From NCBI GenBank assembly GCA_017415425.1, contig JAFQGT010000004.1, positions 1 to 40,862 of the forward strand: 40,862 bases of DNA. The letters are read 5' to 3'. The notes beneath the pieces were generated by a model that had not been told where the DNA came from, made no database searches, and saw only the letters and a program-made list of their open reading frames with translations. Each line of letters opens with the position of its first letter. Position 1 is the first letter of the stretch. The position numbers and the translations under genes are program-made. Shown here one piece after another: positions 13,881 through 40,000 of the stretch. Source of the stretch: Oscillospiraceae bacterium. Lineage in GTDB: Bacteria; Bacillota; Clostridia; Oscillospirales; Oscillospiraceae.

Positions 13881-14011
13881 AGCGAAAAGAAAACGGTGAT
13901 TTTTTGTACAGAATGGATTTGTTGTGCAGCAAGCGTTTTCGCTGTCTGGTGATCCCATCAGCTGCGCTAAGACTTTCTATGCAGAAAGTGGAGTAAGTAA
14001 GATTTACAAAA

Positions 14012-14049
14012 ATTACTGCCATCGACCTATTTAGGCCGATGGCAGTAAT
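14012..14049. terminator. Bidirectional terminator between the isomerase and the response regulator
   Basis: ATTACTGCCATCG / CGATGGCAGTAAT form a perfect stem around a 12-base loop, located between two convergent genes. The preceding 13881-14011 holds a weak AGCGAAAA/TTTTCGCT pairing and no convincing gene. Confidence 0.7.
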
Positions 14050-14067
14050 AGTACAATGCATATTCAA

Positions 14068-15348
14068 TTAAGTGTGCTTGATCCGGTATGCAGTGGGGGC
14101 TAAACCAGTGTAGCGCTTGAAAGCAAGATAAAAGCTTGTCTTGGAACTGTAACCCACAAGCTCTGCGATCCGGGCAATGCTTTCTTCGCTTTCTGTAAGC
14201 AGGACCATAGCTTTGTCCATACGGTACTGGGTGATGTATCCAAAAATGGTAGTGCCGCACTCTGAGGTAAAGCAATGATTAGCGTAGGTGGGGGAGAGGA
14301 ATACGTGCTGTGCCACATCGTTGGTAGTCAGCGGGTTCATATAATTTTCCTCAATATAGGTACGCATAATGGCCACGATCTCGCTGTACTCCATAGTTAA
14401 AGAAGTGTCCTGAAGCTCGTCTACCGTGGGTGCCATAAATAAATCAGAATAAGAAGCAATGGGCGTTGTGGTTTCTGCTTGGGTCAGGTACTCCAGAACT
14501 TCCTGCGCCTGCCGGTAAAGTACCGGAAGATCGGTAAAGTTCTCGGACGGGGAGCTGTAGCCCATTGTGATGTGCAGATTGGTTTTTGCTTCTACATCCA
14601 GACATACCTTGGCCAGCAAATCAGAAACGGAAAGTTCCTGGTCCCGGTACAGCAGCAAGAATGCGCTTTGCTGATTGCCAGTCAGCATAGGGATGATCTG
14701 CGTTTCTTTTAAGTCATAGGACAGGATCGATTGCAAATAGTTGTATGTTTGCAGTTTGTTGTGGGTGTCTAGCGGAGCTTCCAGTGCAAAACAGGTGAGG
14801 ACCAGATTGGTGGCAGGGGCGACGGTAAGACCCAATTGTGACAGCTCTTCCCGAATATGCGCCTCATCATCTGCGTAGAAGAGAAGGGTGGAAACATAGT
14901 GGGACAGGGCGGTTTTTCGATAATACTCTTGTTGAGAATGGGTTTTCTGCTGCTCAAAATGCAGCAGCTGCTCCTGTCGCAGTTGATCCAGAACCCTGCC
15001 GGTGATATCTAACAGCTGATTTAGACGGACGGGTTTCAGAATGTAGTCGAAAATGCCCAGTTTCAGCGCAGTTCTTGCATAATCAAATTCCGAGTAACTG
15101 GAAATGAAAATGATTTTGATATTGGCTTTCAGATTGTTCAGTTCCGTAGCCAGTTGAAGGCCATCCATAATGGGCATAGATATATCCGTGATAACCAGAT
15201 CGGGGAGATCCTTTTTGGCGGCATCCAGCAGATCCTTGCCATTGGAGAATGTGCCAACCAACTCAAAACCGAAGCTCTCCCAGTCGGTGATCTCGCTTAG
15301 TTCCTGCAGGATATGGGGATTGTCGTCGGCAATCATAAGATGAAACAT
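14068..15348 (-). CDS. YesN-type response regulator (REC plus AraC HTH)
   Basis: A 426-residue regulator. The receiver domain (residues 1-120) has the acidic pair DD at 8-9, phosphoacceptor Asp55 in LVITDISMP, and Lys105 in LKPVRL. A middle region of about 200 residues follows, and the C-terminal ~100 residues carry an AraC double helix-turn-helix (TNDVAQHVFLSPTYANHCF, then IARIAELVGYSSKTSFYLAF). It partners with YesM-type kinases to control sugar ABC importers. The only such kinase in view is at 868-2691, about 11 kb away, with the importer locus between. AAAGGAGCACGATTTT precedes the ATG, and a promoter lies at 15420-15448. Confidence 0.93.
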   Translation of the reverse strand: MFHLMIADDNPHILQELSEITDWESFGFELVGTFSNGKDLLDAAKKDLPDLVITDISMPIMDGLQLATELNNLKANIKIIFISSYSEFDYARTALKLGIFDYILKPVRLNQLLDITGRVLDQLRQEQLLHFEQQKTHSQQEYYRKTALSHYVSTLLFYADDEAHIREELSQLGLTVAPATNLVLTCFALEAPLDTHNKLQTYNYLQSILSYDLKETQIIPMLTGNQQSAFLLLYRDQELSVSDLLAKVCLDVEAKTNLHITMGYSSPSENFTDLPVLYRQAQEVLEYLTQAETTTPIASYSDLFMAPTVDELQDTSLTMEYSEIVAIMRTYIEENYMNPLTTNDVAQHVFLSPTYANHCFTSECGTTIFGYITQYRMDKAMVLLTESEESIARIAELVGYSSKTSFYLAFKRYTGLAPTAYRIKHT

Positions 15349-15419
15349 AAAATCGTGCTCCTTTGCTAATAGGGATAACCGTCCGGGCGTGAGTCACCCA
15401 CTTCTGAATAGATAAATAA

Positions 15420-15448
15420 ATTATACAATTCAATTAACTTGAAATCAA
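15420..15448 (-). promoter_or_regulatory. Promoter of the response regulator gene
   Basis: On the minus strand: TTGATT (15448-15443), 17 bases, TATAAT (15425-15420), about 70 bases before the start codon. Confidence 0.7.
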
Positions 15449-15559
15449 CCACCAAGATGCAACAAACTGACAGATAATGAAAAAATGTCTGGTTCTCCTC
15501 TTGCATTTAGGTGTTATTTGTGGTTTACTTATAGCTAGGAAAACGTGGGCATTACAAAT

Positions 15560-15597
15560 CCTTCTGCCGGGTCATTCCGGGGTGCTCACGGGTAGAA
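15560..15597 (+). promoter_or_regulatory. Structured leader before the YhcH-like gene
   Basis: TTCTGCC pairs with GGTAGAA, enclosing a small CCGG/CCGG stem, just ahead of the ribosome-binding site at about 15601-15612. No promoter is obvious in 15449-15560. The fold does not match a riboswitch class that I recognise. Confidence 0.3.
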
Positions 15598-15619
15598 CAA
15601 AAAGGAAAGGTGAAAAGAT

Positions 15620-16075
15620 ATGATTACAGGTAATATTAAAGATTGTAAACGCTACAGCGGTATGAACGAAGCCTTTGCAAAGGCATTTGCGTTTTTGCAG
15701 ACACTTACCGAGGAATCTATGGATGAAAAGATCGATGAGGGCGGTGTCAGAGGCGATATTTCCGTGATCAAAAAGAGCGACACGACGGCTGATGGCAGCC
15801 CCAAGCCCTTTGAGGCCCACAGAAAGTACATTGACATTCACTTCGTGGTAAAGGGCGAAGAGCGGTTCGGCTATGCCCACATTGACACACTGATACCTGC
15901 AACTGAGTATGACGAAACTGACGACTACCAGTTGCTAACCGGTAAGCCAGATTTCCTGACATTGCGTCCTGGTGATTTTTGCATTACTTACCCCGAAGAC
16001 GCCCATATGCCCTGTATGACCACCGACGGCGAAGCGGAAGTCAAGAAGGTCATTCTGAAGATCGCCGACCAATAA
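15620..16075 (+). CDS. YhcH/YjgK/YiaL-family protein (probable sugar anomerase)
   Basis: A 151-residue cupin-like protein of the DUF386 (YhcH/YjgK/YiaL, EbgC-related) family. The segments PFEAHRKYIDIHFVVKGEERFG and CITYPEDAHMPCM carry the conserved His and acidic residues. A characterised member, NanQ (YhcH), speeds anomer interconversion of sialic acid, and EbgC binds beta-galactosidase. A mutarotase-like role on a sugar released by the neighbouring locus is therefore likely. AAAGGTGAAAAGAT precedes ATG. It is divergent from the response regulator and stands alone. The frameshifted sialate esterase at 19.5 kb hints weakly at sialylated glycans, but no Nan pathway genes are present here. Confidence 0.88.
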   Translation: MITGNIKDCKRYSGMNEAFAKAFAFLQTLTEESMDEKIDEGGVRGDISVIKKSDTTADGSPKPFEAHRKYIDIHFVVKGEERFGYAHIDTLIPATEYDETDDYQLLTGKPDFLTLRPGDFCITYPEDAHMPCMTTDGEAEVKKVILKIADQ

Positions 16076-16174
16076 TTTCCCATAAACCCATACGGAAAGC
16101 TTAATATGTGGGAATTACGGAAGGTATGATGTGCTTGCACAATGGGAACTTCCTGTACTGGAAAACATTACAGC

Positions 16175-16203
16175 TTGTTTTTGGAGAGCAGATGGAATAA
16201 AAT
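16175..16203 (+). promoter_or_regulatory. Promoter of the Cys-rich mini-gene
   Basis: TTGTTT (16175-16180), 17 bases, TAAAAT (16198-16203). This places the transcript start near 16210, about 38 bases before the mini-gene start codon. Confidence 0.5.
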
Positions 16204-22831: not shown

Positions 22832-23851
22832 TTAGCAGAGAGAATTGAGATACTCTTCCAGGCACAGACCGGACTCATAGATCGCTTTGGCAACATCCTT
22901 TCCTACATACCGATAATGCCAGGGCTCATAGATAATGCCGGTGTATTCGCTTTTGTCATTGGGGTAGCGGAGGATGAAGCCGTATTCCCAGCAATGTTTC
23001 ATCAGCCATTTCTGTGCAGGAGTGTTCTCCTGGGCTTCGTCCAGAACCCAATAGCTGCTGTCCACCAAATCTACAGCAAGACCCAATTCGTGTTCGCTGG
23101 TACCGGGAATGGCAATGATGGTTGCAGCTGTTTTTTGGGCGGTATCCTGGTCGTAACCTAAATCCAAATAGTAGTTCACTTTTCGGTCATATAAGTACAC
23201 CTGTGTCTCGTGGGAGCGGTAGGCAGAGGTGATCTGGGCATCGAACCCCGCGGCTCGGCAGTCCCGCAACATTTGCAGCAGACTGTCCACACAGCTGCGA
23301 TCCACTAGATAATCGCCTTCTGCGGTTACCAGATCCGGGGTGTAGTCGTCAAAAATGGAGCACCAGGGGTTTGCGATGATGATCTCGTTTCCATCAGATG
23401 TAAAGAAGTGGCTGCGACCATTGATGGGGACTTCGCCTCGCGCCATAGTGCCATCTTCCTGCAGATAGTACCGCTTATCATCCAACTCCAGCCATCCGGT
23501 CTGCAGAATGCCATCTTCGCCCAGATAGTACCGCTTGCCGTCCAACTCCAGCCAGCCGGTGTGGAGGCTGCCGTCCTCGTTCTTGTAGACGGTATAGCTG
23601 GTAACGCCGTCATAATGTGTGATCCAACAGGGAAAATCCAAAGGAGTGGTTTGTGTAGAAGAGGCATAAGATAATTCGGTGGCTTCGGTAGCCTCTGTAG
23701 CTTCTGTATCCACCTGGATGGATTCGGTAGTGTTTGTTGTAAAATCGGTAGATTCGGTAGGGTTGAGGGTGGGCTCTGTAGGCTGCGGTATTTGGTGGCA
23801 GCCGGTAAGCAAAAACGCAAACAGGACAATGAGAATCAGACAGTGTTTCAT
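22832..23851 (-). CDS. D,D-carboxypeptidase lipoprotein (VanY/peptidase M15B) with wall-binding repeats
   Basis: A 339-residue lipoprotein: lipobox LTGC with Cys18, then a Thr/Glu-rich spacer (22-70) made of short TEAT-type repeats. Next come about three CW-type repeats (residues ~88-153: GSLHTGWLELDGKRYYL, GILQTGWLELDDKRYYL and a degenerate third). The C-terminal M15B peptidase domain has SAYRSHETQ (Arg212), zinc ligands His254 and Asp261 in SEHELGLAVD, and Glu309/His312 in EPWHYRYVG. It should trim terminal D-Ala from peptidoglycan stems at the cell surface while the repeats hold it to the wall. The CW repeats match those of the protein at 33.8 kb. The start has GAGGTATCTCT upstream. Confidence 0.93.
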   Translation of the reverse strand: MKHCLILIVLFAFLLTGCHQIPQPTEPTLNPTESTDFTTNTTESIQVDTEATEATEATELSYASSTQTTPLDFPCWITHYDGVTSYTVYKNEDGSLHTGWLELDGKRYYLGEDGILQTGWLELDDKRYYLQEDGTMARGEVPINGRSHFFTSDGNEIIIANPWCSIFDDYTPDLVTAEGDYLVDRSCVDSLLQMLRDCRAAGFDAQITSAYRSHETQVYLYDRKVNYYLDLGYDQDTAQKTAATIIAIPGTSEHELGLAVDLVDSSYWVLDEAQENTPAQKWLMKHCWEYGFILRYPNDKSEYTGIIYEPWHYRYVGKDVAKAIYESGLCLEEYLNSLC

Positions 23852-24587: not shown

Positions 24588-25358
24588 ATGGCAACACCCC
24601 ATACCATCGCAGTAGCCGGAAAAGGCGGCGTGGGTAAAACCACAACCTGTGGTATGATTATTGATTATTTGAGTAGTAAGAAGCAAGGCCCTGTTTTGGT
24701 GGTGGATGCTGACGCCAATGCCAACCTCAACGAGGTTTTGGGTGTGGAAGTAGAAACTTCCTTGGGTGCCATCCGGGAAGAGATGGCGCAGGCTGAGCTG
24801 AAGGGCACGATCCCGTCGGGAATGACCAAGGCGGATTATGCAGAATTTAAGTTTAATTCTGCCATCATCGAAGAAGATGATTATGATATGCTGGTTATGG
24901 GTCGCACCCAGGGTAAGGGCTGCTATTGCTATGTCAATGGCGTGCTGAAATCCCAGGTGGACAAGTATGCCAAGAATTACAGCTACATCGTGATGGATAA
25001 CGAAGCAGGTCTGGAACACGTGGCCAGAGGAACTCTGCCACATGTTGATACGATGCTACTGATTTCTGATTGCTCCCGTCGGGGCATTCAGGCGGCTGCC
25101 CGTGTGGCTGAGATCGTGGAAGAGATGGATCTGAAGCCTGCTGTAATGGGTCTGGTGATCAACCGTGCACCGGGCGGACAGCTGGACGCGGGTGTTCGGG
25201 AAGAGATCGAAAAGCACGGGTTGAAGCTGCTGGGCATTTTGCCACAGGATGAGGGAGTTTACCGCTGTGACTGTGCCGGTGAACCTTCCGCAAAGCTGCC
25301 TCAGGATAACCCTGTAAAAGCTGCGGTCAAGGATCTGATGCAAAACCTGGGTCTGTAA
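24588..25358 (+). CDS. cooC: CODH/ACS nickel-insertion ATPase CooC/AcsF
   Basis: A 256-residue MinD/ArsA-type ATPase. The deviant Walker A is GKGGVGKTT (residues 11-19), the switch region is VVDADANANL, and the paired cysteines Cys112-x-Cys114 (KGCYCYVNG) correspond to the metal-binding CXC of characterised CooC. It is expected to load nickel into CO dehydrogenase or acetyl-CoA synthase in an ATP-dependent step. It is the first gene of the acs locus here. The catalytic CODH gene that would be its usual neighbour is absent from the window, so here it may serve AcsB, as AcsF does. AAAGGAGCAAAAAACT precedes the ATG. Confidence 0.93.
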   Translation: MATPHTIAVAGKGGVGKTTTCGMIIDYLSSKKQGPVLVVDADANANLNEVLGVEVETSLGAIREEMAQAELKGTIPSGMTKADYAEFKFNSAIIEEDDYDMLVMGRTQGKGCYCYVNGVLKSQVDKYAKNYSYIVMDNEAGLEHVARGTLPHVDTMLLISDCSRRGIQAAARVAEIVEEMDLKPAVMGLVINRAPGGQLDAGVREEIEKHGLKLLGILPQDEGVYRCDCAGEPSAKLPQDNPVKAAVKDLMQNLGL

Positions 25359-25444: not shown

Positions 25445-26386
25445 ATGTCTTTCGTTCCTAAGACAGCACCCTTCAGCGGCAAGATCAATGCCGTGACCCT
25501 GGGTACCGGTGACAAGGCAATCGTCATCGGCGGCCAGAATGTGCTGCCCTTCTACACCTTCGATGCTGCTATCGAAAACGCACCTAAGGTCGGTGTTGAG
25601 ATTTCTGATGTGGCAGACACTTGGGATGTTCCCGGTCTGGTAGACTTCTACGCCGGCTGCACCACTATGGCAGATCGTGCTAAGAAGGCCGAAGAACTAC
25701 CCGGCTGCGATTTTATCGCGCTGAACTTCGTGTCTGCTGACCCCAACGGCGCAAACCGCTCTGTTGAGGAATGTGTCGCTGACGCAAAGGCTGTCGCTGA
25801 CGCAATCGCAAAGCCCATCGTTGTTCTGGGCTGCAAGAATGTGGAAAAGGACGCCGATCTGTTCACCAAGATGTCCGAGGCTCTGGCTGGCAAGAACGTA
25901 CTGTTTATGTCCGCAAAGAACGAGAACTACAAGACTGTGGGCGCTTCCGTTGTTCTGGCTAATGGCCAGAAGGTTGGCGCTGAGACCGCTGACGACATCA
26001 ACCTGGCCAAGCAGCTGAACATTATGCTGAAGGGCCTGAATGTGAATCCCGAAGCTGTTGTTATGGATATCGGTACTGCCGCTGTTGGTTACGGTTATGA
26101 GTATGCTGCTTCCACTCTGGACCGTATCCGTCTGGCTGCTCTGCAGCAGTCCGATGCTGACCTGCAGATGCCTATTATGGCTCTGGTCTGCAACGACGTT
26201 TGGGGCGTGAAGGAATCTACCGCTTCTGAAGAAGACGAGCCCGCTTGGGGTTGCCGTGAAGAGCGCGCCATTTCTATGGAAGTGGCTACCGCAGCTGCTG
26301 ACTTGACCGGCGGTGCTGACGCTGTCGTTCTGCGTCACCCTGCTTCCGTGGCAGCAATCCAGAAGTTCATTGCTGAACTGATCTAA
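25445..26386 (+). CDS. acsD: Corrinoid iron-sulfur protein small subunit (CODH/ACS delta)
   Basis: A 313-residue TIM-barrel subunit of the corrinoid iron-sulfur protein. Family segments include IGGQNVLPFYTFDA, VGVEISD, FIALNFVSADPNG, VMDIGTAAVGYGYEYAASTLDRIR and MALVCNDVWGVKE. It pairs with the AcsC part of the next protein to hold the cobamide, which carries the methyl group from methyltetrahydrofolate to acetyl-CoA synthase. The length matches the usual ~310 residues. AAGGGGGATATTTACT precedes ATG. It is 20 bases upstream of the acsC-acsE gene, clearly in the same operon. Confidence 0.96.
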   Translation: MSFVPKTAPFSGKINAVTLGTGDKAIVIGGQNVLPFYTFDAAIENAPKVGVEISDVADTWDVPGLVDFYAGCTTMADRAKKAEELPGCDFIALNFVSADPNGANRSVEECVADAKAVADAIAKPIVVLGCKNVEKDADLFTKMSEALAGKNVLFMSAKNENYKTVGASVVLANGQKVGAETADDINLAKQLNIMLKGLNVNPEAVVMDIGTAAVGYGYEYAASTLDRIRLAALQQSDADLQMPIMALVCNDVWGVKESTASEEDEPAWGCREERAISMEVATAAADLTGGADAVVLRHPASVAAIQKFIAELI

Positions 26387-26406
26387 TCAGAAGGAGGATA
26401 CATACA

Positions 26407-28680
26407 ATGGCTTTGAAAGGTCTTGATATTTTTAAGCTGTCTCCTAAGAAGAACTGTAAGGAGTGCGGCAGCCCCACCTGTATGGCATTCTGTATGAAGG
26501 TGGCGCAGGGCGCTGTTGAACTGAGCAAGTGCCCCTATTTCTCTGAGGAAGCTCTGGCAACTCTGAATGCTTCCACCGCTCCTCTGATGAAGACAATCTC
26601 CGTTGGCGAGCACAAGCTGGGCGGTGAGACCGTTCTGTTCCGTCACGAGAAGACTCTGGTTAACAAGAACCTGTTTGCAGTTTCTGTTTGCACCTGTATG
26701 GAAGCAGCTACCGTTGACGCCAAGCTGGCTGAGGCCAAAAAGGTCGATTACGAGCGTATCGGCGAGCGTATGTATGTGGAAATGATCCACGTTGCCAACA
26801 ACCAGGCAGATCCCGCTGTTTACGCTGAGCTGGTTAAGAAGGCTGCTGCTACCGGTCGTGCTCTGGTCCTGGAGTGCTGGGATGTAGAGTGCGCAAAGGC
26901 TGCTCTGGCAGTTTGCGGCAAGGATGTGATCCTGGACGGCGCTACTCCCGCCAACTGGGAAGCTATGAGCGAAGTTGCTACCGCCGCCGGCGTTGCACTG
27001 GGTGTTTGGGCTGAGAACATTTCCGACCTGTACGACACCGTTAAGAATCTGGAAGCCAAGGGCAACACCAACCTGGTTCTGGATGTGACCGGCGCTACCG
27101 CTAAAGAAACTCTGGCTAACGCTGTCAATGTCCGTCGTACTGCTCTGAAGCAGGAAGACCGCACCTTCGGTTATCCCTCCATCGTGAATCTGGCTAAGGT
27201 GGCTAAGGGCGACGATCGCCTGCAGACCGCTCTGGCTGCTATGTTCGTGGAAAAGTACGCATCCATCGTTGTGATGTCCAATATGTCCTACGCACAGGCT
27301 CTGCCTCTGTACGGCCTGCGCCAGAACATCTTTACCGATCCTCAGAAGCCTATGAAGGTGGAAGCTAAGATCTACCCCCTAAACGGCGCTGATGAGAACA
27401 GTCCCTGCGCTCTGACTGTTGACTTCGCTCTGACCTACTTCCTGGTTTCCGGCGAACTGGAGCGCTCCGGCCAGCCTGTCAATCTGATCATCACCGATGC
27501 ATCCGGTATGTCCGTTCTGACTGCTTGGGCCGCCGGCAAGCTGTCTTCTTCCACCATCAAGAAGACCTTCGACGAGCTGGATATTGCTAATAAGATCAAG
27601 AACCGCACCCTGATCATCCCTGGCAAGGTTGCTGTTATGAAGGGTGAAATTCAGGAGAAGCTGCCTGAGTGGAATGTGGTTGTCGGTCCTCTGGAGGCTG
27701 TTCAGCTGCCCAAGTATATGAAGGATAAGGAATACGAAGCTGCTGTTGCTGCTGCTGAAGCAGAGCGCGCCGCCAAGGCAGGTGCTGTTAAGGAAGAGGT
27801 TAAGGAGCTGTCCTTCGACGAGCTGCTGGCTACCCGTGTTCCCAAGATCGAGATCGTGGATATGGGCGTTTCCTACAAGGGCCACAACCCCGAATCCAAG
27901 ACCTTCGTTACCATCGGCGAGCGCATCCACTGTATCGCTCCCGCTATTAAGAAGGCTATGGCTGAGCGGGATCCCGCTCCCATTCTGGAACGTGCTGCTG
28001 CTCAGATTAAGGCCGGCGCTACCTACCTGGATGTCAATATCGGACCTGCTGAGAAGGACGGTCCTGAACTGATGATGTGGGCAGTCAAGCTGCTGCAGGA
28101 GAACTTTAACAATGTTCCTCTGGCTCTGGATACTGCCAATATGAAGGCTATCGAAGCCGGTATCAAGGTTTACAACCGTACCAACGGCAAGCCTATCGTC
28201 AACTCTGCTGACGCCGGTTCCCGTATTGGCTACATCGATCTGGCTGCTGCTAACGATGCTATCTGTATCGCTCTGTGCTCCGCTGACGGTATTGCTAAGG
28301 ATAACGCTGAGCGCGAAATGCACTGCGACAATATGCTGGAGCGCGGCCTGTCTCTGGGTATGACCTCCGACGACCTGTGGTTCGACCCCCTGTTCCTGGT
28401 TGTCAAGGGTATGCAGGACAAGCAGATGGAAGTTCTGGAAGCTATCAAGATGTTCTCCGACAAGGGCCTGAAGTCCACCGGTGGTCTGTCCAACAACTCC
28501 AACGGCGCACCCAAGCACGTCCGTCCCATTATGGACGCTACTCTGGTTGCTATGTGTATGATGCAGGGCCTGACCTCCGCTATCGTCAACCCCAACGACC
28601 TGCGTCTGATGGAGACCATCAAGTCCTGCGACATCTTCAAGAACCACGTGCTGTATTCCGACTCTTATCTGGATATGTAA
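26407..28680 (+). CDS. acsCE: Fusion of corrinoid iron-sulfur protein large subunit (AcsC) and methyltetrahydrofolate methyltransferase (AcsE)
   Basis: A single 757-codon frame joins two Wood-Ljungdahl proteins that are separate in Moorella. Residues 1-~441 are the CFeSP large subunit, with the [4Fe-4S] motif C17-x2-C20-x4-C25-x16-C42, a TIM barrel and a C-terminal B12-binding region. Residues ~442-497 are an Ala/Glu/Lys-rich linker (EYEAAVAAAEAERAAKAG). Residues ~498-757 are a full pterin-binding methyltransferase with IGERIHC, YLDVNIGP, LALDTANM, SADAGSR and GLSNNSNG. Both halves have normal length. The fusion would keep the methyl donor enzyme beside its cobalt acceptor. AAGGAGGATACATACA precedes ATG. 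There is no internal start with a ribosome-binding site near 27880-27900, so it is not two overlapping genes. Confidence 0.95.
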   Translation: MALKGLDIFKLSPKKNCKECGSPTCMAFCMKVAQGAVELSKCPYFSEEALATLNASTAPLMKTISVGEHKLGGETVLFRHEKTLVNKNLFAVSVCTCMEAATVDAKLAEAKKVDYERIGERMYVEMIHVANNQADPAVYAELVKKAAATGRALVLECWDVECAKAALAVCGKDVILDGATPANWEAMSEVATAAGVALGVWAENISDLYDTVKNLEAKGNTNLVLDVTGATAKETLANAVNVRRTALKQEDRTFGYPSIVNLAKVAKGDDRLQTALAAMFVEKYASIVVMSNMSYAQALPLYGLRQNIFTDPQKPMKVEAKIYPLNGADENSPCALTVDFALTYFLVSGELERSGQPVNLIITDASGMSVLTAWAAGKLSSSTIKKTFDELDIANKIKNRTLIIPGKVAVMKGEIQEKLPEWNVVVGPLEAVQLPKYMKDKEYEAAVAAAEAERAAKAGAVKEEVKELSFDELLATRVPKIEIVDMGVSYKGHNPESKTFVTIGERIHCIAPAIKKAMAERDPAPILERAAAQIKAGATYLDVNIGPAEKDGPELMMWAVKLLQENFNNVPLALDTANMKAIEAGIKVYNRTNGKPIVNSADAGSRIGYIDLAAANDAICIALCSADGIAKDNAEREMHCDNMLERGLSLGMTSDDLWFDPLFLVVKGMQDKQMEVLEAIKMFSDKGLKSTGGLSNNSNGAPKHVRPIMDATLVAMCMMQGLTSAIVNPNDLRLMETIKSCDIFKNHVLYSDSYLDM

Positions 28681-28842: not shown

Positions 28843-30969
28843 ATGAGCGTATTAACTGATCTGATTTACGGCGGCTCCAATGCAGTGGCAGGCCTTACCG
28901 AGGGCGCTGTCAATGCGGCGATTGAAAAGTATGGTGCTGACCATCCTGTTGCATTCCCCGACACTGCTTACTTTTTCCCCACCATTTACGCCGCCACCGG
29001 TGTTAAGGTGAAGACTCTGGGCGATCTGCCCGCCTGTGTGGGCGTGCTGAAGAGCCTGATTACCAACCAGGAAGATCTGGGTCAGGCGCTGAACGCCGGT
29101 CTTGCCACCGCTGTGGGCGCTGAGATCATTGAGGGCCTCAAGTATGCCGAAGGCGGCAATCCCTATGAAAACGATTCCGGTATCGGCTTTGTGCCCGATC
29201 CCATCATCCGCTCCCTGGGCGTGCCTCTGGTTACCGGCGATATTCCCGGCGTGGCAGTTGTGCTGGGCAAGGCCGACAATGCCGAGGATGTTGTGAAGGT
29301 GGTCAAGGACTACCAGTCCAAGGGCATTATGACCTTTATGGTGGGCGATGTGATCGAACAGTGCGTCGAGGGCGGCGTTCGTATGGGTCTTGAGTTCCGT
29401 GTGATTCCTCTGGGTCACGATGTGACCTCCGTGATACACGTGGTTACCGTCGCTGTCCGTGCAGCTTTGATTTTCGGTAATGTGCAGCCCGGCGATTTGG
29501 GAGGTCTGTTGGATTATACCAAGAACAGAGTTCCCGCATTTGTCAACACCTTCGGCGCCATTGATGCAGTGGTCGTCTCTGCCGGCGCAGGCGCCATCGC
29601 TTTGGGCTTCCCCGTGGTGGTGGATATCGATTTGGGCGAGAACCAGGTTCCCGGCGCTCTGGAGTCCGTTTGCGATCACAACGAGACCGTCAAGAAGTCT
29701 CTGGAACTGCGGAACATTAAGATCAAGGTAAAGGAACTGCCCATCCCCGTGGCATTTGCTGCTGCATTTGAGGGCGAGATCATCCGTAAGGCCGATATGC
29801 ACAACGAGTTCTGGTCCTCTAAGAATCCCACCGCTGAGTTGGTGGTTATGCGGGAGCTGAACGAGGTTGAGGATCACAAGATCACCATCGTCGGACCGGA
29901 TCTGGCGGATGCCAAGGAACTGGCTCTGGCTACTTATGTGGAGGTCGCCGGCAAGAAGATGCAGGTGGACTTCGAGTCTGTTATCGAACGCAAATTCCAC
30001 GCTTGGTTCAACTATATGGAAGGCGTTATGCACACCGGTCAACGGAACCAGGTCCGTGTCCGTGTGTCCAACAGCGCTTTCGAGGCCGGATTGAGCCTAA
30101 AGCACTTTGCTGAGGTGCTGTACGTAATGATTATGGACGAGTTCGACGCAGTGGTTGACAAGTGCCAGATCACCTTGATCACCGATGCTGCCGAGGCCGG
30201 TAAGTTCCGTGATGAGATCGCTATGCCCCGTTACGCCCAGAGAGATGACCGTCTGGCATCTATGACCGACGAGGCTGTGGACCGCTACTACACCTGTATC
30301 CTGTGTCAGTCCTTTGCTCCCGCTCACTGCTGCGTGGTTACTCCCGAGCGCCTGGGTCTGTGCGGTGCGGTGTCCTGGCTGGATGCTAAGGCTACCAATG
30401 AGCTGGATCCCAACGGTCCTTGCCAGCCTATTCTGAAGAAGGGTCTGATCGACGAGCGCACCGGCCGTTATGAGGAAGTCAACCGGATGATCAACGAAGC
30501 CACCCACGGTGCCGTTGAAAACGTAACGCTGTACTCCATTCTGGAAGATCCTATGACCTCCTGCGGCTGCTTCGAGTGCATCTGCGGCATCGAGCCAATG
30601 TCCAGCGGTGTCATCGTAGTCAACCGTGAGTATAAGGGTATGACTCCCTCCGGTATGACTTTCGGCGAGCTGGCCTCCTGTACTGGCGGCGGTGTTCAGA
30701 CTCCCGGCTTTATGGGTCACGGCCGTCACTTCATCGCTTCCAAGAAGTTCCTGGCTGCTGAGGGTGGCATCGAGCGTATCGTTTGGATGCCCAAGGAGCT
30801 GAAGGACGATGTGGCGGAGCGGCTGAATAAGACCGCTATGGAACTGTACGGCATTGAGAACTTCACCGATATGGTGGCGGACGAGACTGTTACCTGCGAT
30901 GCAGAGGAACTGCTGAACTGGCTGACCGAGAAGGGTCACCCTGTTCTGGGTCTGGAGCCTCTGGCTTGA
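28843..30969 (+). CDS. acsB: Acetyl-CoA synthase, catalytic subunit (A-cluster)
   Basis: A 708-residue acetyl-CoA synthase that joins a methyl group, CO and CoA. All A-cluster ligands are present with the spacing of the Moorella enzyme: Cys485, Cys488, Cys497 and Cys507 for the [4Fe-4S] cube (CILCQSFAPAHCC then LGLCG), and Cys574-Gly-Cys576 (SCGCFECICG) for the two-nickel site. The length is close to the 729 residues of Moorella, so the N-terminal CODH-contacting domain is kept. This implies a CODH partner encoded elsewhere. GGAGGGACAAAA precedes ATG. Strong codon bias, its own promoter and a strong terminator (30992-31026) point to high expression. Confidence 0.97.
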   Translation: MSVLTDLIYGGSNAVAGLTEGAVNAAIEKYGADHPVAFPDTAYFFPTIYAATGVKVKTLGDLPACVGVLKSLITNQEDLGQALNAGLATAVGAEIIEGLKYAEGGNPYENDSGIGFVPDPIIRSLGVPLVTGDIPGVAVVLGKADNAEDVVKVVKDYQSKGIMTFMVGDVIEQCVEGGVRMGLEFRVIPLGHDVTSVIHVVTVAVRAALIFGNVQPGDLGGLLDYTKNRVPAFVNTFGAIDAVVVSAGAGAIALGFPVVVDIDLGENQVPGALESVCDHNETVKKSLELRNIKIKVKELPIPVAFAAAFEGEIIRKADMHNEFWSSKNPTAELVVMRELNEVEDHKITIVGPDLADAKELALATYVEVAGKKMQVDFESVIERKFHAWFNYMEGVMHTGQRNQVRVRVSNSAFEAGLSLKHFAEVLYVMIMDEFDAVVDKCQITLITDAAEAGKFRDEIAMPRYAQRDDRLASMTDEAVDRYYTCILCQSFAPAHCCVVTPERLGLCGAVSWLDAKATNELDPNGPCQPILKKGLIDERTGRYEEVNRMINEATHGAVENVTLYSILEDPMTSCGCFECICGIEPMSSGVIVVNREYKGMTPSGMTFGELASCTGGGVQTPGFMGHGRHFIASKKFLAAEGGIERIVWMPKELKDDVAERLNKTAMELYGIENFTDMVADETVTCDAEELLNWLTEKGHPVLGLEPLA

Positions 30970-31109: not shown

Positions 31110-33038
31110 ATGCCAAAAGTTATTTTCCAAATTGAGGGCGCTACATCGGTAGAGATCACCTGCCAGGCAGGGGATAATCTGCTGGAGCTGGCTCGGCGGG
31201 CCAATGTGGCCATTGATGCCCCTTGTTCCGGCAACGGCTCCTGCGGTAAGTGCCGGGTAAAGCTACTGGAGGGTGAACTGGAGACCATTCCCTCCCGCCA
31301 CATCAACGATGAAGAATTTGAGACCGGCTGGCGTCTGTCTTGCAACTGCAAGGTAGTAGGGGATTGTACCGTTTTTGTGCCGGATATTGCCTCTGCCTAC
31401 CAAAGCCGGATGAAAACAGCAGACCTGAGCAGTCCTCAGGAACTTGCGATTTTTGAAAGCTGCCAGAACCGGCTTCGGGAAAGCGGTATTGTTTTTGAAA
31501 ATTCTTTCCGGGCAGTTGTGGTGGAGATGGCTGAGCCGACTCTGGATGACACGATGCCTGATAACGAGCGGCTGACCTGGGCAGTCCAGGAGGCATTGGA
31601 CGTTGCAAACGTAAAGATTCCCTTTGGGGTTATGGTGAAGTTAGCTTCTGTACTCCGGGAGAATAACTTCCGCATTTGCGTTAAGGGCGAGCTGCAGGGA
31701 GATACTTTCCTGTGTATGGAGCTTTCCAATCCCGATGATACCACCATTGTAGGTTGCGCCATTGATATCGGTACCACAACGGTGACAATGGTACTAACCG
31801 ATCTGACTACCGGCAAGCTCCTTGCTAAGGGATCTTCCGGTAACGGACAGATCCGTTTTGGCGCGGATGTGATCAACCGGATCATTCAGCAAGGCAAGGA
31901 CGGCGGCAAGAAAAAGCTGCAGGATGCCATTATTAAAGAAACCCTCAATCCCATCATCGTTAACTTGTGCAAAACTGCCGACATCTCTGCCCGCAGTATT
32001 CTGCGGCTGTGTGTAGCGGCCAATACCACAATGAACCACCTGTTTGTGGGTGTGGATGCAGAGCCTGTCCGGATGGAACCCTATATCCCCAGTTTCTTCG
32101 GCTGGGAGGATCTCACTGCCGGAGATCTGAAATTGCCGGCTAATCCTTTGGCTCCTGTCCTAATCGCACCCAATATCGGCTCCTATGTGGGCGGTGATAT
32201 TACCGCCGGTGCGTTGGCTGCAGGATTGTGGGATCGGGATGAGATGAGCTTGTTTATTGACTTGGGTACCAATGGCGAGATCGTCTTTGGCAACCGGGAC
32301 TTTATGATGAGCTGTGCCTGCTCTGCCGGCCCTGCATTTGAGGGCGGTGATATTTCCTGCGGTATGCGGGCTACCGACGGCGCTGTGGAAGCGGTGACCA
32401 TCGATAAACACACGATGGAGCCTACGTTGACCATCGTGGGCGAACCCGGACAAAAACCTGTGGGTATTTGCGGTTCAGGTATTATTGATGTGATCTCCGA
32501 GCTGTTCCGCTGTGGTATTATCAATGCTAAGGGCCTGTTTGTCCGTGAGGGTGAAAGAGTTTTGCGGGATACCCACAATATGGGCAGATTTGTGCTGGCT
32601 ACTGCCCAGGAAAGTGAAACCGGTCGGGAGATCTCCATCAATGAGGTGGATATTGACAACTTCATCCGTGCCAAGGGTGCGATTTTCTCGGCCATTGACA
32701 CAATGCTCAGCGCTGTGGATATGACTGTGGATATGATCGACACGGTATATGTGGCAGGCGGTATCGGTTCCGGTATCAATATGAAAAACTCAGTGAATAT
32801 CGGTATGCTGCCGGATGTGGAATTGGAGAAGTATCAATACATCGGCAATTCCTCCCTCACCGGAGCCTATGCGATGGTAATGAGTGACGCGGCGGCTGCC
32901 AAGTGCGCAGAGGTGGGCGCAAATATGACCTACCTGGAGCTCTCCACCCACCCAGGATATATGGATGCTTTTGTGGCAGCTTGTTTCCTGCCCCATACAG
33001 ATGCCAGCCTGTTTCCCAGCAGTGTACAGGAGATGTAA
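31110..33038 (+). CDS. acsV: Reductive activator of the corrinoid iron-sulfur protein (RACo/AcsV)
   Basis: A 642-residue protein. The N-terminal ~95 residues are a plant-type [2Fe-2S] ferredoxin domain with Cys39, Cys45 and Cys48 (APCSGNGSCGKC) and a fourth ligand at Cys78 or Cys80. A linker region follows, then an ASKHA-type ATPase region starting at CAIDIGTTTVTMVL, with LFIDLGTNGEIVFG and VYVAGGIGSG. RACo-type enzymes use ATP to drive reduction of inactive Co(II) in the corrinoid protein back to Co(I). Here the target is AcsD plus the AcsC part of the fusion. It is cotranscribed with the DUF3786 gene one base downstream. The start lacks a strong ribosome-binding site (GAGCGAGG about ten bases upstream). 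Confidence 0.94.
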   Translation: MPKVIFQIEGATSVEITCQAGDNLLELARRANVAIDAPCSGNGSCGKCRVKLLEGELETIPSRHINDEEFETGWRLSCNCKVVGDCTVFVPDIASAYQSRMKTADLSSPQELAIFESCQNRLRESGIVFENSFRAVVVEMAEPTLDDTMPDNERLTWAVQEALDVANVKIPFGVMVKLASVLRENNFRICVKGELQGDTFLCMELSNPDDTTIVGCAIDIGTTTVTMVLTDLTTGKLLAKGSSGNGQIRFGADVINRIIQQGKDGGKKKLQDAIIKETLNPIIVNLCKTADISARSILRLCVAANTTMNHLFVGVDAEPVRMEPYIPSFFGWEDLTAGDLKLPANPLAPVLIAPNIGSYVGGDITAGALAAGLWDRDEMSLFIDLGTNGEIVFGNRDFMMSCACSAGPAFEGGDISCGMRATDGAVEAVTIDKHTMEPTLTIVGEPGQKPVGICGSGIIDVISELFRCGIINAKGLFVREGERVLRDTHNMGRFVLATAQESETGREISINEVDIDNFIRAKGAIFSAIDTMLSAVDMTVDMIDTVYVAGGIGSGINMKNSVNIGMLPDVELEKYQYIGNSSLTGAYAMVMSDAAAAKCAEVGANMTYLELSTHPGYMDAFVAACFLPHTDASLFPSSVQEM

Positions 33039-33039
33039 T

Positions 33040-33651
33040 ATGCAGATTGAAAATCATAAGGAAGAAGTACCCTTTGCTCATTATGAGGAAAAATTCAGAG
33101 CGCTGAATCCGGAGGAAGCAGTGTCCCGTCTGCCCGGCCTTACCTGGGACGGAGCGGCGTTTATGGTGACTTTGTTGGGGCGCAAATTCCGAATCACCCA
33201 TCCCGATTATTCCATTACTCCGGAAGATGGTGGCAGCACGCCGCCGCTGGCAACTCAGACATTCCTGCTGCGTTATTTGCTGGAGTGCAAGGCGGTAGAT
33301 TGGAAAGGGGAGTGGAAGACCTTTCGGGAGATGCCTTGGGGTGAGATGTATATCAAACCCTATACAGGCCGGGTGCTGACCCGGGCGGCATTTACATTGG
33401 GTACTCGTCTGGATGCGTTCCGGGCGGCAGCAGAAAAAATGGGTGCATTCCCAGAATCTCACGGAGATGCCGGTTACCGGTTCCGGTTGGTGGATGGCTA
33501 TTGGATGCAGATCCTGGTTTGGGCAGGCGATGAAGAGTTTCCTCCCAACGCCCAGGTGCTTTACTCGGATAACTTTGCAGATGGCTTTGCAGCGGAAGAT
33601 CGGGTGGTGGCAGGCGATATTCTGATCTCCACCATTAAGGTGAATATGTAA
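33040..33651 (+). CDS. DUF3786 protein linked to the acetyl-CoA synthase locus
   Basis: A 203-residue soluble protein with the DUF3786 look: EEAVSRLPGLTWDGAAFMVTLLGRKF, LLRYLLECKAVDW, WKTFREMPWGEMY and RFRLVDGYWMQILVW. No cofactor motif can be seen. DUF3786 genes often neighbour corrinoid/Wood-Ljungdahl genes, so a role in corrinoid protein assembly or activation is likely but unproven. The ATG starts one base after the acsV stop, with AGGAGATG inside the end of acsV, giving translational coupling. Confidence 0.85.
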   Translation: MQIENHKEEVPFAHYEEKFRALNPEEAVSRLPGLTWDGAAFMVTLLGRKFRITHPDYSITPEDGGSTPPLATQTFLLRYLLECKAVDWKGEWKTFREMPWGEMYIKPYTGRVLTRAAFTLGTRLDAFRAAAEKMGAFPESHGDAGYRFRLVDGYWMQILVWAGDEEFPPNAQVLYSDNFADGFAAEDRVVAGDILISTIKVNM

Positions 33652-33799: not shown

Positions 33800-35374
33800 T
33801 TGCTCAAGAGAATTCTTGCAGGTCTGCTGAGTTTGGTATTGATACTATCTGTGTTGCCGCTGAGTGCAACGGCCGCTTCACAGGAAGAAGAGAAACAAAT
33901 CGAATCGACGATCACAAAGCACTACTACCGCACAGTAATCGATTCCGGAATGGAAAATCTAAAGGGATATTGCGGTCTGCTGGCCAGCTGGCAGCTGTAC
34001 CTTATGGGAGTCAACAAAAGTGTGTTGATGCTTGACGGCAATATGCAGTATGATTATTACTGCACTCTTAAGGAAACTTCCGGCGGTTATTCGGTCACTA
34101 CTTACAGCAGTAAGGACTACACGCTGGAAGATGCACTGAATGCAATTACCAAAAACGGAAGCAAAAATGTATATAATATTTTAGTAGGTTTTCAGTGGAC
34201 TGCCACTGAGGCTGGCGCAAAATACGGCCACGCGTTAGTGGTGTATGCGATCCTGGACGGAATGGTATACTTTACTGAAGGGTACGACACTTCTCTGGGC
34301 ACTGCTGCCGGCCAGCCCATCAAGCTGTCTATCGCAGAATTTGTAGACTTTTATGAGGATTGGACCCGCTTTGAAGGTGCAGTCGTTTTTAGTCCTAAAA
34401 ATTATCTGGATACCTGCACGGAGTATGCGTGTCATATGATTGCGGAAGTTTCCCAGCGGACAGCGGTGTTTTCCCTGCCTGCTACGGATGAGGAGGAAAC
34501 AGAATCCTCCCTTTTGTGGGAGGCAGTAGCCGGAGAGCGGGTGCGGGTGACAGGTCTTTACCACAACCAGTATAATAACTATTACTATCGGGTGGATGAT
34601 TGCGGCAAGATCGGTTACATATCGGCAGATAGCTTAATACCGGAACTGTTTGTTTGGGATGATGTTTGTCTGAATGATCTGCAATTGCCAGTCAGTGTCC
34701 CAAGGGGAAAAAGTTTGAATATTGCCGGAGAAATCTGCAGTTCATATACCAAAATTACAGGTATTTCGTTGCAGATCAGATCTCAGGACCAAATGTTGGT
34801 TCGGTCTTATTCCGATGCCAAAGCCAGCGGATATTATCAGATGGAATCCGATGCGATGGAAGCGGCAATGGCACTGGATACATTGTCTGCCGGTTGTTAT
34901 GATCTGCGTGTAGCTGCCAATTGCTGGAATTATTATCTGACGGATGGCCGTGTACAAAAAAACGAAGAAGAGATAACGCTATTGAATAAGATCTTCTTTG
35001 TGGGAAAACCGAGTATTTACCCGGTTCAAAAGAAAACCACAGATGAGAACAATGATGTGCCGGATGGCTGGTTCTACCGTCAGGACAAGCTCTACTATTA
35101 TAAAGACGGCAAGCCGGTTACCGGATGGATTTGTTACCACGGTATTGATTATTATCTGCAGGAAGATGGCAGCGTAACTACCGGGTGGGCAACAATTAAT
35201 GGCAGTCAGCGGTACTTTAGTGGCACAGGCGCAATGCGGACCGGCTGGGTCACCACTGAAAAAGGAATTTGCTACCTGCTGAAAAACGGCGTTATGGCAA
35301 AGGGAAGTTATATCGTTCAGGGACAGCATTATAAGTTTTCCGACACCGGATGGCTTCTGAAAAGCGATTCATAA
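33800..35374 (+). CDS. Secreted papain-like domain protein with SH3 and CW wall-binding repeats
   Basis: A 524-residue exported protein. A Sec signal peptide (residues 1-26, ending SATAA) is followed by a region that looks like a papain-type cysteine peptidase: Cys58 in GYCGLLASWQ at a helix start and His144 in YGHALVVYAILDG on a strand. A bacterial SH3-like segment follows (~220-280, VAGERVRVTGLY to KIGYISA), then a beta-rich domain. The last ~105 residues contain about five CW-type glucan/choline-binding repeats (YYYKDGKPVTGW and similar). It probably sits on the wall and cleaves a peptide or peptidoglycan bond. The start is TTG with AGGAGG eight bases upstream. Peptidase activity is inferred from two residues only. 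Confidence 0.8.
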   Translation: MLKRILAGLLSLVLILSVLPLSATAASQEEEKQIESTITKHYYRTVIDSGMENLKGYCGLLASWQLYLMGVNKSVLMLDGNMQYDYYCTLKETSGGYSVTTYSSKDYTLEDALNAITKNGSKNVYNILVGFQWTATEAGAKYGHALVVYAILDGMVYFTEGYDTSLGTAAGQPIKLSIAEFVDFYEDWTRFEGAVVFSPKNYLDTCTEYACHMIAEVSQRTAVFSLPATDEEETESSLLWEAVAGERVRVTGLYHNQYNNYYYRVDDCGKIGYISADSLIPELFVWDDVCLNDLQLPVSVPRGKSLNIAGEICSSYTKITGISLQIRSQDQMLVRSYSDAKASGYYQMESDAMEAAMALDTLSAGCYDLRVAANCWNYYLTDGRVQKNEEEITLLNKIFFVGKPSIYPVQKKTTDENNDVPDGWFYRQDKLYYYKDGKPVTGWICYHGIDYYLQEDGSVTTGWATINGSQRYFSGTGAMRTGWVTTEKGICYLLKNGVMAKGSYIVQGQHYKFSDTGWLLKSDS

Positions 35375-36636: not shown

Positions 36637-37096
36637 CTTGTGTTTTAGGAGTCGAAAAGTTCGGGGATAATTTCCACAAATTTGCAAAAAACCGTTTGAC
36701 CCATGTTTTGACCCATAATAGGATATCACATAGTGGACAAGTTAGGATTTTTCAGAATACAATGTCCACTAAATAGGAAAATCTCAGAAATTTTCAAAAC
36801 TTTTGAAAAGAAATTTTCTGCGACCGACCGGTGCTGCACTTGATGTTCAAAACCTCTCTCAATGCCGATCACCGGCACCGGGAGAGGTTTTACTTGTTTA
36901 TTTCGTTTTGTTAGGTGTTGTGAGATAAGATCAACTATGGTCATCTGAAAGGTTGAATACGATGTTGATAATGATTGAGTTTTGTGATAATATATTTTTA
37001 ACTATGCATTGTAATACTAAGTCTTTCTTGTATGCAATGGTAGCGGCATCGTTGTTACGGCGATAAAGAGAATTTGAAGTACGGGGGCACGGATTG
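36637..37096. other. 460-base non-coding stretch between tRNA-fMet and the restriction-modification gene
   Basis: No convincing intact gene. It holds a tandem TTTGACCCATGT/TTTGACCCATA (about 36696-36718) that on the minus strand recalls the extreme 3' end of some integrase genes; a perfect 9-bp inverted repeat TAGTGGACA (36731-36739) / TGTCCACTA (36763-36771); a nested hairpin AAACCTCTC/GAGAGGTTT with inner GCCG/CGGC (about 36850-36890), a possible terminator; and a promoter at 36965-36993. These features fit the scarred edge of a tRNA-associated island, but no integrase or duplicated att site is visible. Confidence 0.4.
36965..36993 (+). promoter_or_regulatory. Promoter of the restriction-modification gene
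   Basis: TTGATA (36965-36970), 17 bases with extended TGA, TAATAT (36988-36993), leaving a leader of about 97 bases. Confidence 0.7.
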
Positions 37097-40000
37097 ATGA
37101 TTACCAGACAAAATTTTGAACAGGTAGTGCAATTCCTGGGATTTACTCAAAACGGAACAACGGGCGTTTATGAGAAACGATATGATGCGTTCGATTATGT
37201 TATTACCATAAATTTTAAAGTCGAAAAGATTGAGTATACTAGTGGAACCAATCCAATACGGGTGAATGACCAGACAACATCTAATTTCTCGCACCCTGAG
37301 AATTTTGTGGTATTAGAATGCGTTAATCGTCTTTTGGAGAAAGGTTATCGCCCTGAGCATATTGAATTAGAAAAGAAATGGACATTGGGCCATGAAGAAA
37401 AGGGCGGAAAAGCTGACATCTGCGTATACTCATCAGATGGAAAAATGCTCTTTATTGTTGAGTGCAAGACATATGGAAAAGAGTATAAAAAAGAATACGA
37501 CAAAACCTGTACAGATGGAGGCCAGTTGTTTTCGTATTGGCAGCAGGAAGGCAGTACAAAATGGTTAGCGCTTTATGCTGCGGACTATGTTGATGGTAAA
37601 ATACTATACATTACTGATAGTATTGATTGCAGCGATGATGCAAATATTCTTTCCTTGGCTAAGAAAGACACATCTATCGCAACCTACAGTTCTGCTCATA
37701 CAAAAACGGAACTTCATACCGTTTGGACAGAAACATATGACAGACGTTTTTGTGGGGATGTAATTTTTAGGGATGATTCTCAGGCATATCAAATCGGTGT
37801 AAAACCTCTGAGAAAACGCGATCTTCGTGACTTTAGCGAAGGAGACAAAATCGTTAATCGGTTTGAAGAGATTCTGCGCCATAACAATGTATCTGACAAG
37901 GAAAATGCATTTAATAGACTAATTGCGTTATTTATTTGCAAACTGGTTGATGAAATACAAAAAACGGATGTTGATGTAGTCGATTTTCAATACAAGGTTG
38001 GTACAGACACATATGAATCTTTGCAAGATCGCTTACAGCGCTTGCACAAAGAAGGCATGGAGAAATTCATGCGAGAAGAAATCTTCTATGTGTCCGACGA
38101 TTACGCAGATAATCTGGTTCAGCAATATACTGGGCAAAAACGCAAAAACATGATTGCAGAGCTCAAGAAGACACTACGGATTCTTAAGTTTTACACCAAT
38201 AATGACTTTACCTTTAAAGATGTCCATAATGAGGAACTATTTTACCAGAATGGAAAAATACTTGTTGAAGTGGTTCAGCTTTTTCAGGAGTATCGCATTA
38301 TTGGATCTAAGGATTTACAGATGCTCGGCGATTTGTTTGAGCAGTTGCTAAATAAGGGATTTAAACAAAACGAAGGACAGTTCTTTACGCCTACACCTAT
38401 TACACGGTTTATTTGGGATAGCTTGCCTGTAAAAAGCATTGTCCAGAGTACCAAGGGTATAGAGTATCCTAAAATCATCGATTACGCCTGTGGTGCAGGT
38501 CACTTTCTGACAGAAGGTTTTGAGGCGATTAATGCTTGCGTTTTGACCATTTCCCCCGAAACAGAAATTGAGCCTTCTTGGGTAGAGAAGAAAGTATATG
38601 GTGTCGAAAAGGATTATCGTCTGGCGCGTGTTTCAAAGATATCATTGTTCATGCATGGTGCCGGAGACGGTAACATTATCTTTGGCGATGGGTTAGAAAA
38701 CTACCCCGACAAAAGCATTATCCCCAATAGTTTTGATATTCTTGTCGCTAACCCGCCTTATTCTGTGGCGGCATTTAAGCCACACTTGAAGCTTAAGGAT
38801 AATGAACTAACAATACTTGAGAAAATCTCCAACAATGGATCTGAAATCGAAACGCTGTTTATCGAACGGAGTGCACAGTTGTTAAAGCCCAAAGGCATAG
38901 CCGCGGTTATTCTGCCGAGTAGCATTTTGAATAAGGAAAGTGAAAGTTTCATTGCTGCAAGAGAAAATCTACTGCGACACTTTAATATCCGGGCTATTGC
39001 TCAGTTAGGAAGTAAGACGTTTGGTGCAACGGGAACAAACACGGTTATCCTATTTTTGGAGAAGTTTGATGAACCGCCCAAACGGACAGATCTTGTAGCT
39101 GACAGTGTGACAGCCATCTTTGAAAACGGCGATTTGGATGATTGGGAAGACAAAGCCATTCTTGATGGGTACTTAGCGAAAATAGGTGTTGATTTGGATA
39201 CCTATCGTGTGTTTGTCGGAGCTGGACTCAACTATTTAGATTGGGAGAGTAATCCATATTTTAAAATGTATTTGGATGCGTTTCTGGCTTCGGCGGAGGT
39301 GGCTACGAAAATTAAGCAAAAAGGATTTATTAAGGCTACCCAGGCGGAAAAAGAGAGATGGCTCAATCAACATTTCTATGCATTTGCAAAAAATAAAGAA
39401 GCAGAAAAACTCATATATTATGCGTTGGTTTATTTGCAGAACACTTTGGTGATTACTGCACCAGATGGGAATAAAGAACAAGAAGAATTCCTAGGATATA
39501 AGTGGAGCAATCGAAAAGGACAAGAAGGCATCCAAATAATTACTCCAGGAGGACTTCTCTATAATGTTACGGATCGTTCTGATGACGGAGTTCTCTCAGG
39601 TATAATCAGAAATGCATATGTAGGAAATGCTTGTGCTGTGCCTGAATTGAGTGATTACTACTATTATTTGCGTTTGCAGGATATGCTGGACTTTGGCAAT
39701 GTCGAGTTTAATAAGGCAATTAAAACTACCAAAACCAGAGTTCCCCGTACCGGTGATGGTTGGACAGTATACAAGTTATCTGATGACAAAGTGTTCGATG
39801 TATTCATCGGCGATCGTGTTCTGTCTACCGAAGTTGAGGAAAGTGGAAAGTATCCAATATATAGTGCAAATGTTTTTGAAGAGTTTGGTCGAACAAACAA
39901 GCAAAATGTGACCGATTTTTCCCAGCCTTCGATTGTATGGGGAATTGATGGTGACTGGATGGTTAATTGTATTCCTGCCAATAAGCCGTTCTATCCAACA

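Follow-up and report, generated by a model that had tools for sequence, protein, structure and literature searches.

The corrinoid iron–sulphur protein (CFeSP), made up of AcsC and AcsD, and the methyltransferase AcsE (MeTr) are normally separate proteins that dock with one another for methyl transfer. The locus described here raises the question of whether the CFeSP large subunit and the methyltransferase can also be a single protein. In the window, by which we mean the whole 40,862-nucleotide stretch of DNA analysed, a first-pass annotation recognised a full AcsC and a full AcsE in one frame, leading to the further questions of which organisms carry such a gene, how it arose and what its product might do.

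A single frame for AcsC and AcsE

The acsC–acsE fusion gene (acsCE) lies at 26407..28680 on the + strand. Its frame opens with ATG, has zero internal stops when the window is translated and encodes 757 residues with a calculated mass of 81.9 kDa; a Shine–Dalgarno sequence, AAGGAGG, can be read directly at 26391..26397 (+). Family models bear out the annotation of two full proteins in the one frame. Residues 1–441 (26407..27729, +), the AcsC part or CFeSP large subunit, score 496 bits against NF003195 (full-length; curated cut-off 306) and match PDB 9fzy_F with an E value of 5e-139. Residues 499–757 (27901..28677, +), the AcsE part or methyl-tetrahydrofolate (methyl-THF):CFeSP methyltransferase, score 459 bits against NF040758 (full-length; curated cut-off 370) and can be aligned with 1f6y. 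Taken alone, the AcsE domain reaches 462 bits with the latter model, compared with 458–500 bits for three split AcsE proteins. A second AcsE model, NF005719, stays below its cut-off for the fused protein (172 versus 259 bits), but three split AcsE proteins also fail it, at 186–188 bits, and it cannot therefore separate fused from split.

Pfam divides the 757-residue product into FeS (13–44), CdhD (70–436) and Pterin_bind (519–728) domains. The first of these holds Cys17, Cys20, Cys25 and Cys42 (26455..26532, +), whose spacing is the C-x2-C-x4-C-x16-C [4Fe–4S] motif that the first-pass annotation had picked out. The C-terminal corrinoid (B12) domain of the AcsC part, used below as a segment of a mosaic test, spans approximately residues 335–441 (27409..27729, +), going by the domain boundary in CFeSP structures. 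In the AcsE part, Asp575, Asn599, Asp660 and Asn696 match D75, N96, D160 and N199 of the Moorella protein in the alignment to 1f6y, residues which we take to be those of the methyltransferase active site. Judged by these alignments, AcsC and AcsE are both complete, with the Fe–S cysteines and the methyltransferase active-site residues kept. The AcsC half is predicted to bind the corrinoid and to pair with AcsD, whose gene lies directly upstream, and the AcsE half is predicted to transfer the methyl group to the corrinoid. Across 27 close fused genes, dN/dS is 0.15–0.19 for the AcsC parts, 0.11 for AcsE and 0.24–0.32 for the linker between them; the fused frame is under purifying selection.

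The acs gene cluster

The gene order in the window is CooC-like ATPase, acsD, acsCE, acsB, acsV and DUF3786, all on the + strand. The first gene (24588..25358) encodes a CooC-like P-loop ATPase of the CbiA/AAA_31 families and is a neighbour in most loci. It is followed by acsD, encoding the CFeSP small subunit (25445..26386; NF040759, 449 bits versus a cut-off of 430). Downstream of acsCE are acsB, encoding acetyl-CoA synthase (28843..30969; NF040764, 996 bits versus 800), acsV, encoding the corrinoid activation/regeneration protein (31110..33038; NF040756, 923 bits versus 800), and a gene for a DUF3786 protein (32965..33651; PF12654), a recurrent neighbour by synteny. Of the 48 fused named loci described below, 14 have the full order and the remaining 34 part of it; certain of the loci with a shortened order end early and others do not, and in one (L095) no acsB match was found within 6 kb downstream of acsCE. 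In the gene orders listed, acsD is immediately upstream wherever the locus extends that far, the exceptions being four loci without an AcsD match.

In the window genome (97.4 % complete, 4.5 % contamination, 41 contigs) the whole protein gives a single match and no separate AcsC or AcsE was found; the separate pair that the first-pass annotation thought might overturn its reading was thus not seen at the gene level. The CODH of this genome is on another contig, which also carries a second acsB and a gene that by eye we name CooC-like. The two acsB paralogues (28843–30969 of the window, beside acsCE, and 13816–16188 of locus L155 on contig C6, beside CODH) are 53 % identical, and the cysteine motifs are intact in both. 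In six split loci acsD is preceded by two acsB matches, and both copies are full length in L123 (Blautia schinkii) and L125 (B. wexlerae).

Distribution of the fused and split forms

A search with the 757-residue product for the co-linear AcsC and AcsE architecture, as suggested in the first-pass annotation, recovered the fusion from many further assemblies. Among the best 80 named loci of a GTDB r220 scan, taken from a longer candidate list, 48 are fused and 32 split. By label, the fused records comprise 33 from Oscillospiraceae (including four Candidatus Faecousia, two Candidatus Avoscillospira and Pseudoflavonifractor sp. MSJ-30, the last (L095, NZ_JAHLPU010000040.1) apparently a cultured strain), one from Lachnospiraceae (L113) and 14 without a family, with two of the 48 (L104 and L121) sharing one isolate name. 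The split records are labelled Lachnospiraceae (23) or lack a family (nine). In the split form, found in Blautia, Fusicatenibacter and other genera of the window's family, acsC and acsE are adjacent genes in the same order as in the fusion, but a stop codon closes AcsC ahead of AcsE: this was so in 32/32 split named loci and in 31/31 further junctions read directly, 28 of which are from family genomes. The proteins of the 32 split named loci are 58–72 % (AcsC) and 71–81 % (AcsE) identical to the window protein.

To put numbers on the window's own family, we sampled 398 of its genomes that are at least 85 % complete. Matches at E ≤ 1e-50 came from 99, which a hand tally sorted into 44 with an unbroken fusion, six with a fusion cut by contig ends, one with a frame-broken fusion, 47 with separate genes and one with AcsE only. 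The fused form is therefore present in 50 of the 98 AcsC-bearing genomes, the frame-broken fusion and the 47 separate pairs making up the remainder, and AcsE is encoded in all 98 genomes that have any stretch of AcsC. For the separate pairs, a stop was read at 40 junctions (the 28 above and 12 others) and the genes are on different contigs in seven. The frame-broken case (L211; G823, contig C11) is an acsCE gene whose frame is broken within AcsC and whose linker is intact, reflecting either sequencing error or decay. Sorted by genus, 13 are fused, 20 separate and none mixed. In all 44 genomes with an unbroken fusion, the fusion is the sole match at E ≤ 1e-50 with at most two candidates scored per genome; in another search, which scored more candidates for each of 13 such genomes, the second matches among those listed are at most 33 % identical.

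Beyond the family, 116 of 398 genomes in a phylum sample matched at E ≤ 1e-60. One is the window genome; the other 115 belong to other families, and none of these appears fused; here, frames reported as longer than 600 were read and all are split, the others being judged by their short frames (≤513). In an order sample, 14 of 295 genomes matched, four of them fused and all four in the window's family; eight of the matched genomes are from other families, and reading them showed AcsC closed by a stop in each. The suggestion that the fusion marks a lineage-specific form of the pathway thus held up, with no fused case seen outside the family in the phylum and order samples. From the nearest named records, we infer that the family carrying it is GTDB Oscillospiraceae (Candidatus Faecousia, Avoscillospira and their kin). 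The fusion is a real gene, found in 13 of the 33 sampled AcsC/AcsE genera of one family, where it replaces separate acsC and acsE; its carriers are gut bacteria, for the most part uncultured.

The linker

The two halves of the window protein are joined by residues 442–498 (27730..27900, +), a linker of approximately 57–59 residues depending on the choice of cut; linkers in 60 fused loci range from 41 to 65 residues, with a median of 59. The first-pass annotation described a linker of about 55 residues rich in Ala, Glu and Lys. Such a linker is indeed present, but its Ala/Glu/Lys richness is confined to the first part. An alignment of 16 fused proteins shows that this start is variable, whereas the tail (residues 479–498, PKIEIVDMGVSYKGHNPESK; 27841..27900, +) is better kept, with a pattern like V-x-Y-K-x-x-x-P, and is retained in most fused proteins. 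No clear copy of the tail was seen upstream of AcsE in three frames of six split loci (L018, L114, L115, L119, L126 and L141). Across all 49 complete fused genes the dN/dS of the linker rises to 0.51–0.57, and the sequence of the tether is thus loosely constrained. There is no conserved internal start: a Shine–Dalgarno-like site with a start is found in 9 of the 60 linkers, at scattered positions, and none is present in the window linker.

Two explanations would make the single chain less than it appears. Adjacent genes might have been joined, in assembly or annotation, through a missed stop or an indel, and the window genome is fragmented (41 contigs) and in relatives acsC lies next to acsE. 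The same architecture recurs, however, in many independent assemblies, both in the 48 named loci, with their linkers of 41–65 residues, and in half of the AcsC-bearing genomes of the family sample (50 of 98), and we reject an artefact as exceedingly improbable; the stop or indel in the linker that the first-pass annotation named as a possible refutation finds no counterpart in relatives, where the frame is open too. Alternatively, the chain might be cut (or its translation re-initiated) in the linker to yield ordinary separate AcsC and AcsE, with the fusion acting mainly to couple their expression 1:1. Variable linkers rich in Ala, Glu and Lys can be protease-sensitive, and this is such a linker, but its length is fairly constant (median 59) and most fused proteins keep the tail; re-initiation we reject, as candidate starts are scattered and occur in just nine linkers, the window's not among them. 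We consider this second explanation as a whole unlikely.

Origin and probable movement of the fused gene

Evidence on the number of fusion events comes first of all from AcsE. In trees of AcsE only (52 rows), a branch with support of 100/100 keeps the 26 fused domains together on one side, and a mixture model returns the same branch at 100/99, suggesting that the fusion probably arose once. A531, N593 and D627 of AcsE are candidates for residues near-specific to the fused form. S366, M368 and M411 of AcsC were also considered as marks of fusion and were rejected, being found in the split sister group L114/L119/L126 as well.

The AcsC part gives a different picture, in which the fused/split label requires two changes. 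Fused genes fall into two linker types, A and B, and over the barrel segment of AcsC (61–315) type B groups with the split locus L018 of genome G071 (100/100), away from type A. Over the B12-domain segment (335–441), types A and B share one branch (100/98) without L018, a branch that also takes in the split sister group L114/L119/L126, in a tree that left out L013; the arrangement inside this branch is weak (55/72 for fused against split). Followed along the alignment, L018 AcsC is nearest to type B over columns 61–320, whereas from about column 340 onwards split proteins are closer to it. The AcsE of L018 belongs with the split kind, having 90 % identity to that of a Blautia locus. Owing to L018, the fused genes were not recovered as a single clade in the concatenated and AcsC trees; an AU test on a fused clade gave p 0.112 despite a likelihood difference of 55.9, and we place no weight on it. 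In an RpoB tree, for which sequence was available from 27 of 30 genomes, ten fused genomes form one clade (100/100) and G071 sits with the two type-B genomes (100/100), but the fused genome G088 lies among split genera, next to G025 (100/99; its RpoB is L178), and a single clade of fused genomes is rejected (p 3e-69). The AcsCE of G088 (L012/L212) groups with those of G053 and G138 (99/99).

Since neither the AcsC nor the RpoB trees hold a single fused clade, recombination and transfer are needed to reconcile them with AcsE. A block comprising the B12 domain, linker and AcsE seems to have recombined between acsC genes, into type B, and genus g88 probably received the fused gene laterally; the fused/split label was fixed before the trees were built, whereas the data that revealed types A and B and the breakpoint also served to test them. 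The simplest reading of these sequences would be one fusion, movement of the block into type B and transfer to g88, with G071 preserving the older state. An alternative is loss in G071, and the RpoB placement of G071 beside G086 (95/91) leans that way.

Two independent fusions, one for each linker type and alike through convergence, would account for the grouping of type B with the split L018 in the AcsC trees at 100/100, for the two label changes and for the different linker starts. Against this, a branch with support of 100/100 and 100/99 has the AcsE domains of both types together on one side, and their B12 domains share another (100/98, one split sister group inside and L013 left out). Linker comparisons divide: of 12 A–B pairs (four A, three B), eight have scores that no more than 1 of 500 shuffles could reach, shared Ala-rich stretches inflating such scores, and four are weak, being reached by 7–65 of 500. 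We regard convergence as distinctly unlikely, and a single fusion followed by recombination and transfer is the reading used below.

Relation to known systems and a proposed mechanism

We found no described AcsC–AcsE fusion in the open-access literature searched. The CFeSP and MeTr of structures 4djd, 2ycl, 9fzy and 1f6y, which we take to be Moorella, Carboxydothermus and Clostridium proteins, have the same domains, cluster cysteines and active-site residues as AcsCE. They are, however, two proteins (4djd has both chains), whereas AcsCE is one chain with a linker of 41–65 residues. The nearest known arrangement that AcsCE resembles is MetH, in which a folate barrel and a cobalamin domain are held on a single chain and to which the AcsE half is distantly related (1q7m, E 8e-19); the B12, homocysteine and reactivation modules of MetH are of other families and its methyl group goes to homocysteine, not AcsB. 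HgcAB-like fusion proteins (NF043039) also carry an AcsC-type corrinoid domain in a fusion, but with a ferredoxin-like partner and a link to mercury methylation, and the match to AcsCE is weak (residues 315–442; 46.6 bits against a cut-off of 285).

Taken together, the comparisons describe a genuine, conserved fusion, most likely of single origin, and a variant of a known enzyme pair. We think it probable that this fusion carries out tethered CFeSP methyl transfer, a mechanism that we infer from its domains. The AcsCE chain would pair with AcsD to form CFeSP, with the methyltransferase barrel tethered to the C-terminus of the B12 domain. The barrel would take the methyl group from methyl-THF and hand it on to the Co(I) of the tethered corrinoid, after which the B12 domain would undock and bring this group to the AcsB A-cluster, or visit AcsV for reactivation. 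Because the tether starts at the C-terminal end of the B12 domain itself, docking would take place within one chain, or within a dimer should the methyltransferase still form one, and the AcsC:AcsE stoichiometry would be locked at 1:1. The fixed stoichiometry, raised local concentration and swinging B12 domain proposed in the first-pass annotation are reasonable expectations.

A more elaborate reading, to which we give somewhat less than even credence, is that B12 domain, linker and methyltransferase moved as a unit, a functional cassette by which docking in the methyl branch of the Wood–Ljungdahl pathway would have become intramolecular, as in MetH. Its history would consist of a single origin, a swap into type B near the boundary between barrel and B12 domain and a whole-gene move to g88. 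The cassette would perhaps serve a dedicated second acetyl-CoA synthase, as one acsB is beside acsCE and another beside CODH.

Consequences for reading gut acetogen genomes

A published survey gives acsE as ‘not detected’ for 78 % of the Oscillospirales genomes that have CODH/ACS, covering 7 of 9 genera (PMC11338639). Its text describes assignment of gene functions by eggNOG-mapper, with acsE as K15023 and with all numbers counted where a gene was given two or more orthologue numbers, and the words ‘fusion’ and ‘fused’ were not found in its main text. The fusion may explain these missing acsE genes, the acsE lying inside a gene that best matches acsC. In a ranking of the whole fused chain against PDB, AcsC (E 5e-139) comes far above AcsE (E 1e-38), and a best-hit method could plausibly hide acsE in this way; given that all orthologue numbers were counted, the mapper would need to have given the fused gene the AcsC number alone. 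Divergence of AcsE is an unlikely cause, the fused domain scoring within the range of its split counterparts (462 versus 458–500 bits).

If acsE is hidden by fusion, the methyl branch in these gut bacteria would be fuller than published accounts suggest, and they may be overlooked where acetogens are counted by the presence of acsE. A ruminant study, as its text describes, required acsE before a genome was called an acetogen, using METABOLIC for annotation (PMC12449052). In metatranscriptomes of the human gut, Faecousia and CAG-170 are given 65 and 26 %, respectively, of the CODH transcripts from Oscillospirales (PMC11338639), and in macropods Ca. Faecousia is described as the sole genus predicted to be acetogenic (PMC12911397). 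Knowledge of the fusion is useful for reading gut acetogen genomes, and AcsCE would be a naturally tethered form of a methyl-transfer complex whose members have otherwise been studied as individual proteins.

Other features of the window genome

Fhs was found in the window genome, with no match there to MetF (PF02219) or to a second AcsE-like protein such as MetH. MetF is found in 38 of 41 genomes of the window's genus, and the pathway may therefore be incomplete in this genome or a piece of the assembly missing. Two other genomes, G135 and G853, have a MetF match on the contig that carries acsCE, a little upstream of it. A monomeric group B1 [FeFe] hydrogenase gene adjoins the CODH/acsB cluster (L155, 16280–17788, −).

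Within the window, the acs cluster is flanked by genes for choline-binding-repeat proteins (33800–35374, +, and 22832–23851, −), one of which has a VanY-type carboxypeptidase domain. Further along, at 37094–40822 (+), a 1242-residue protein unites HSDR_N-like, N6-adenine methylase and type I specificity domains in one chain, resembling a single-chain restriction–modification enzyme.
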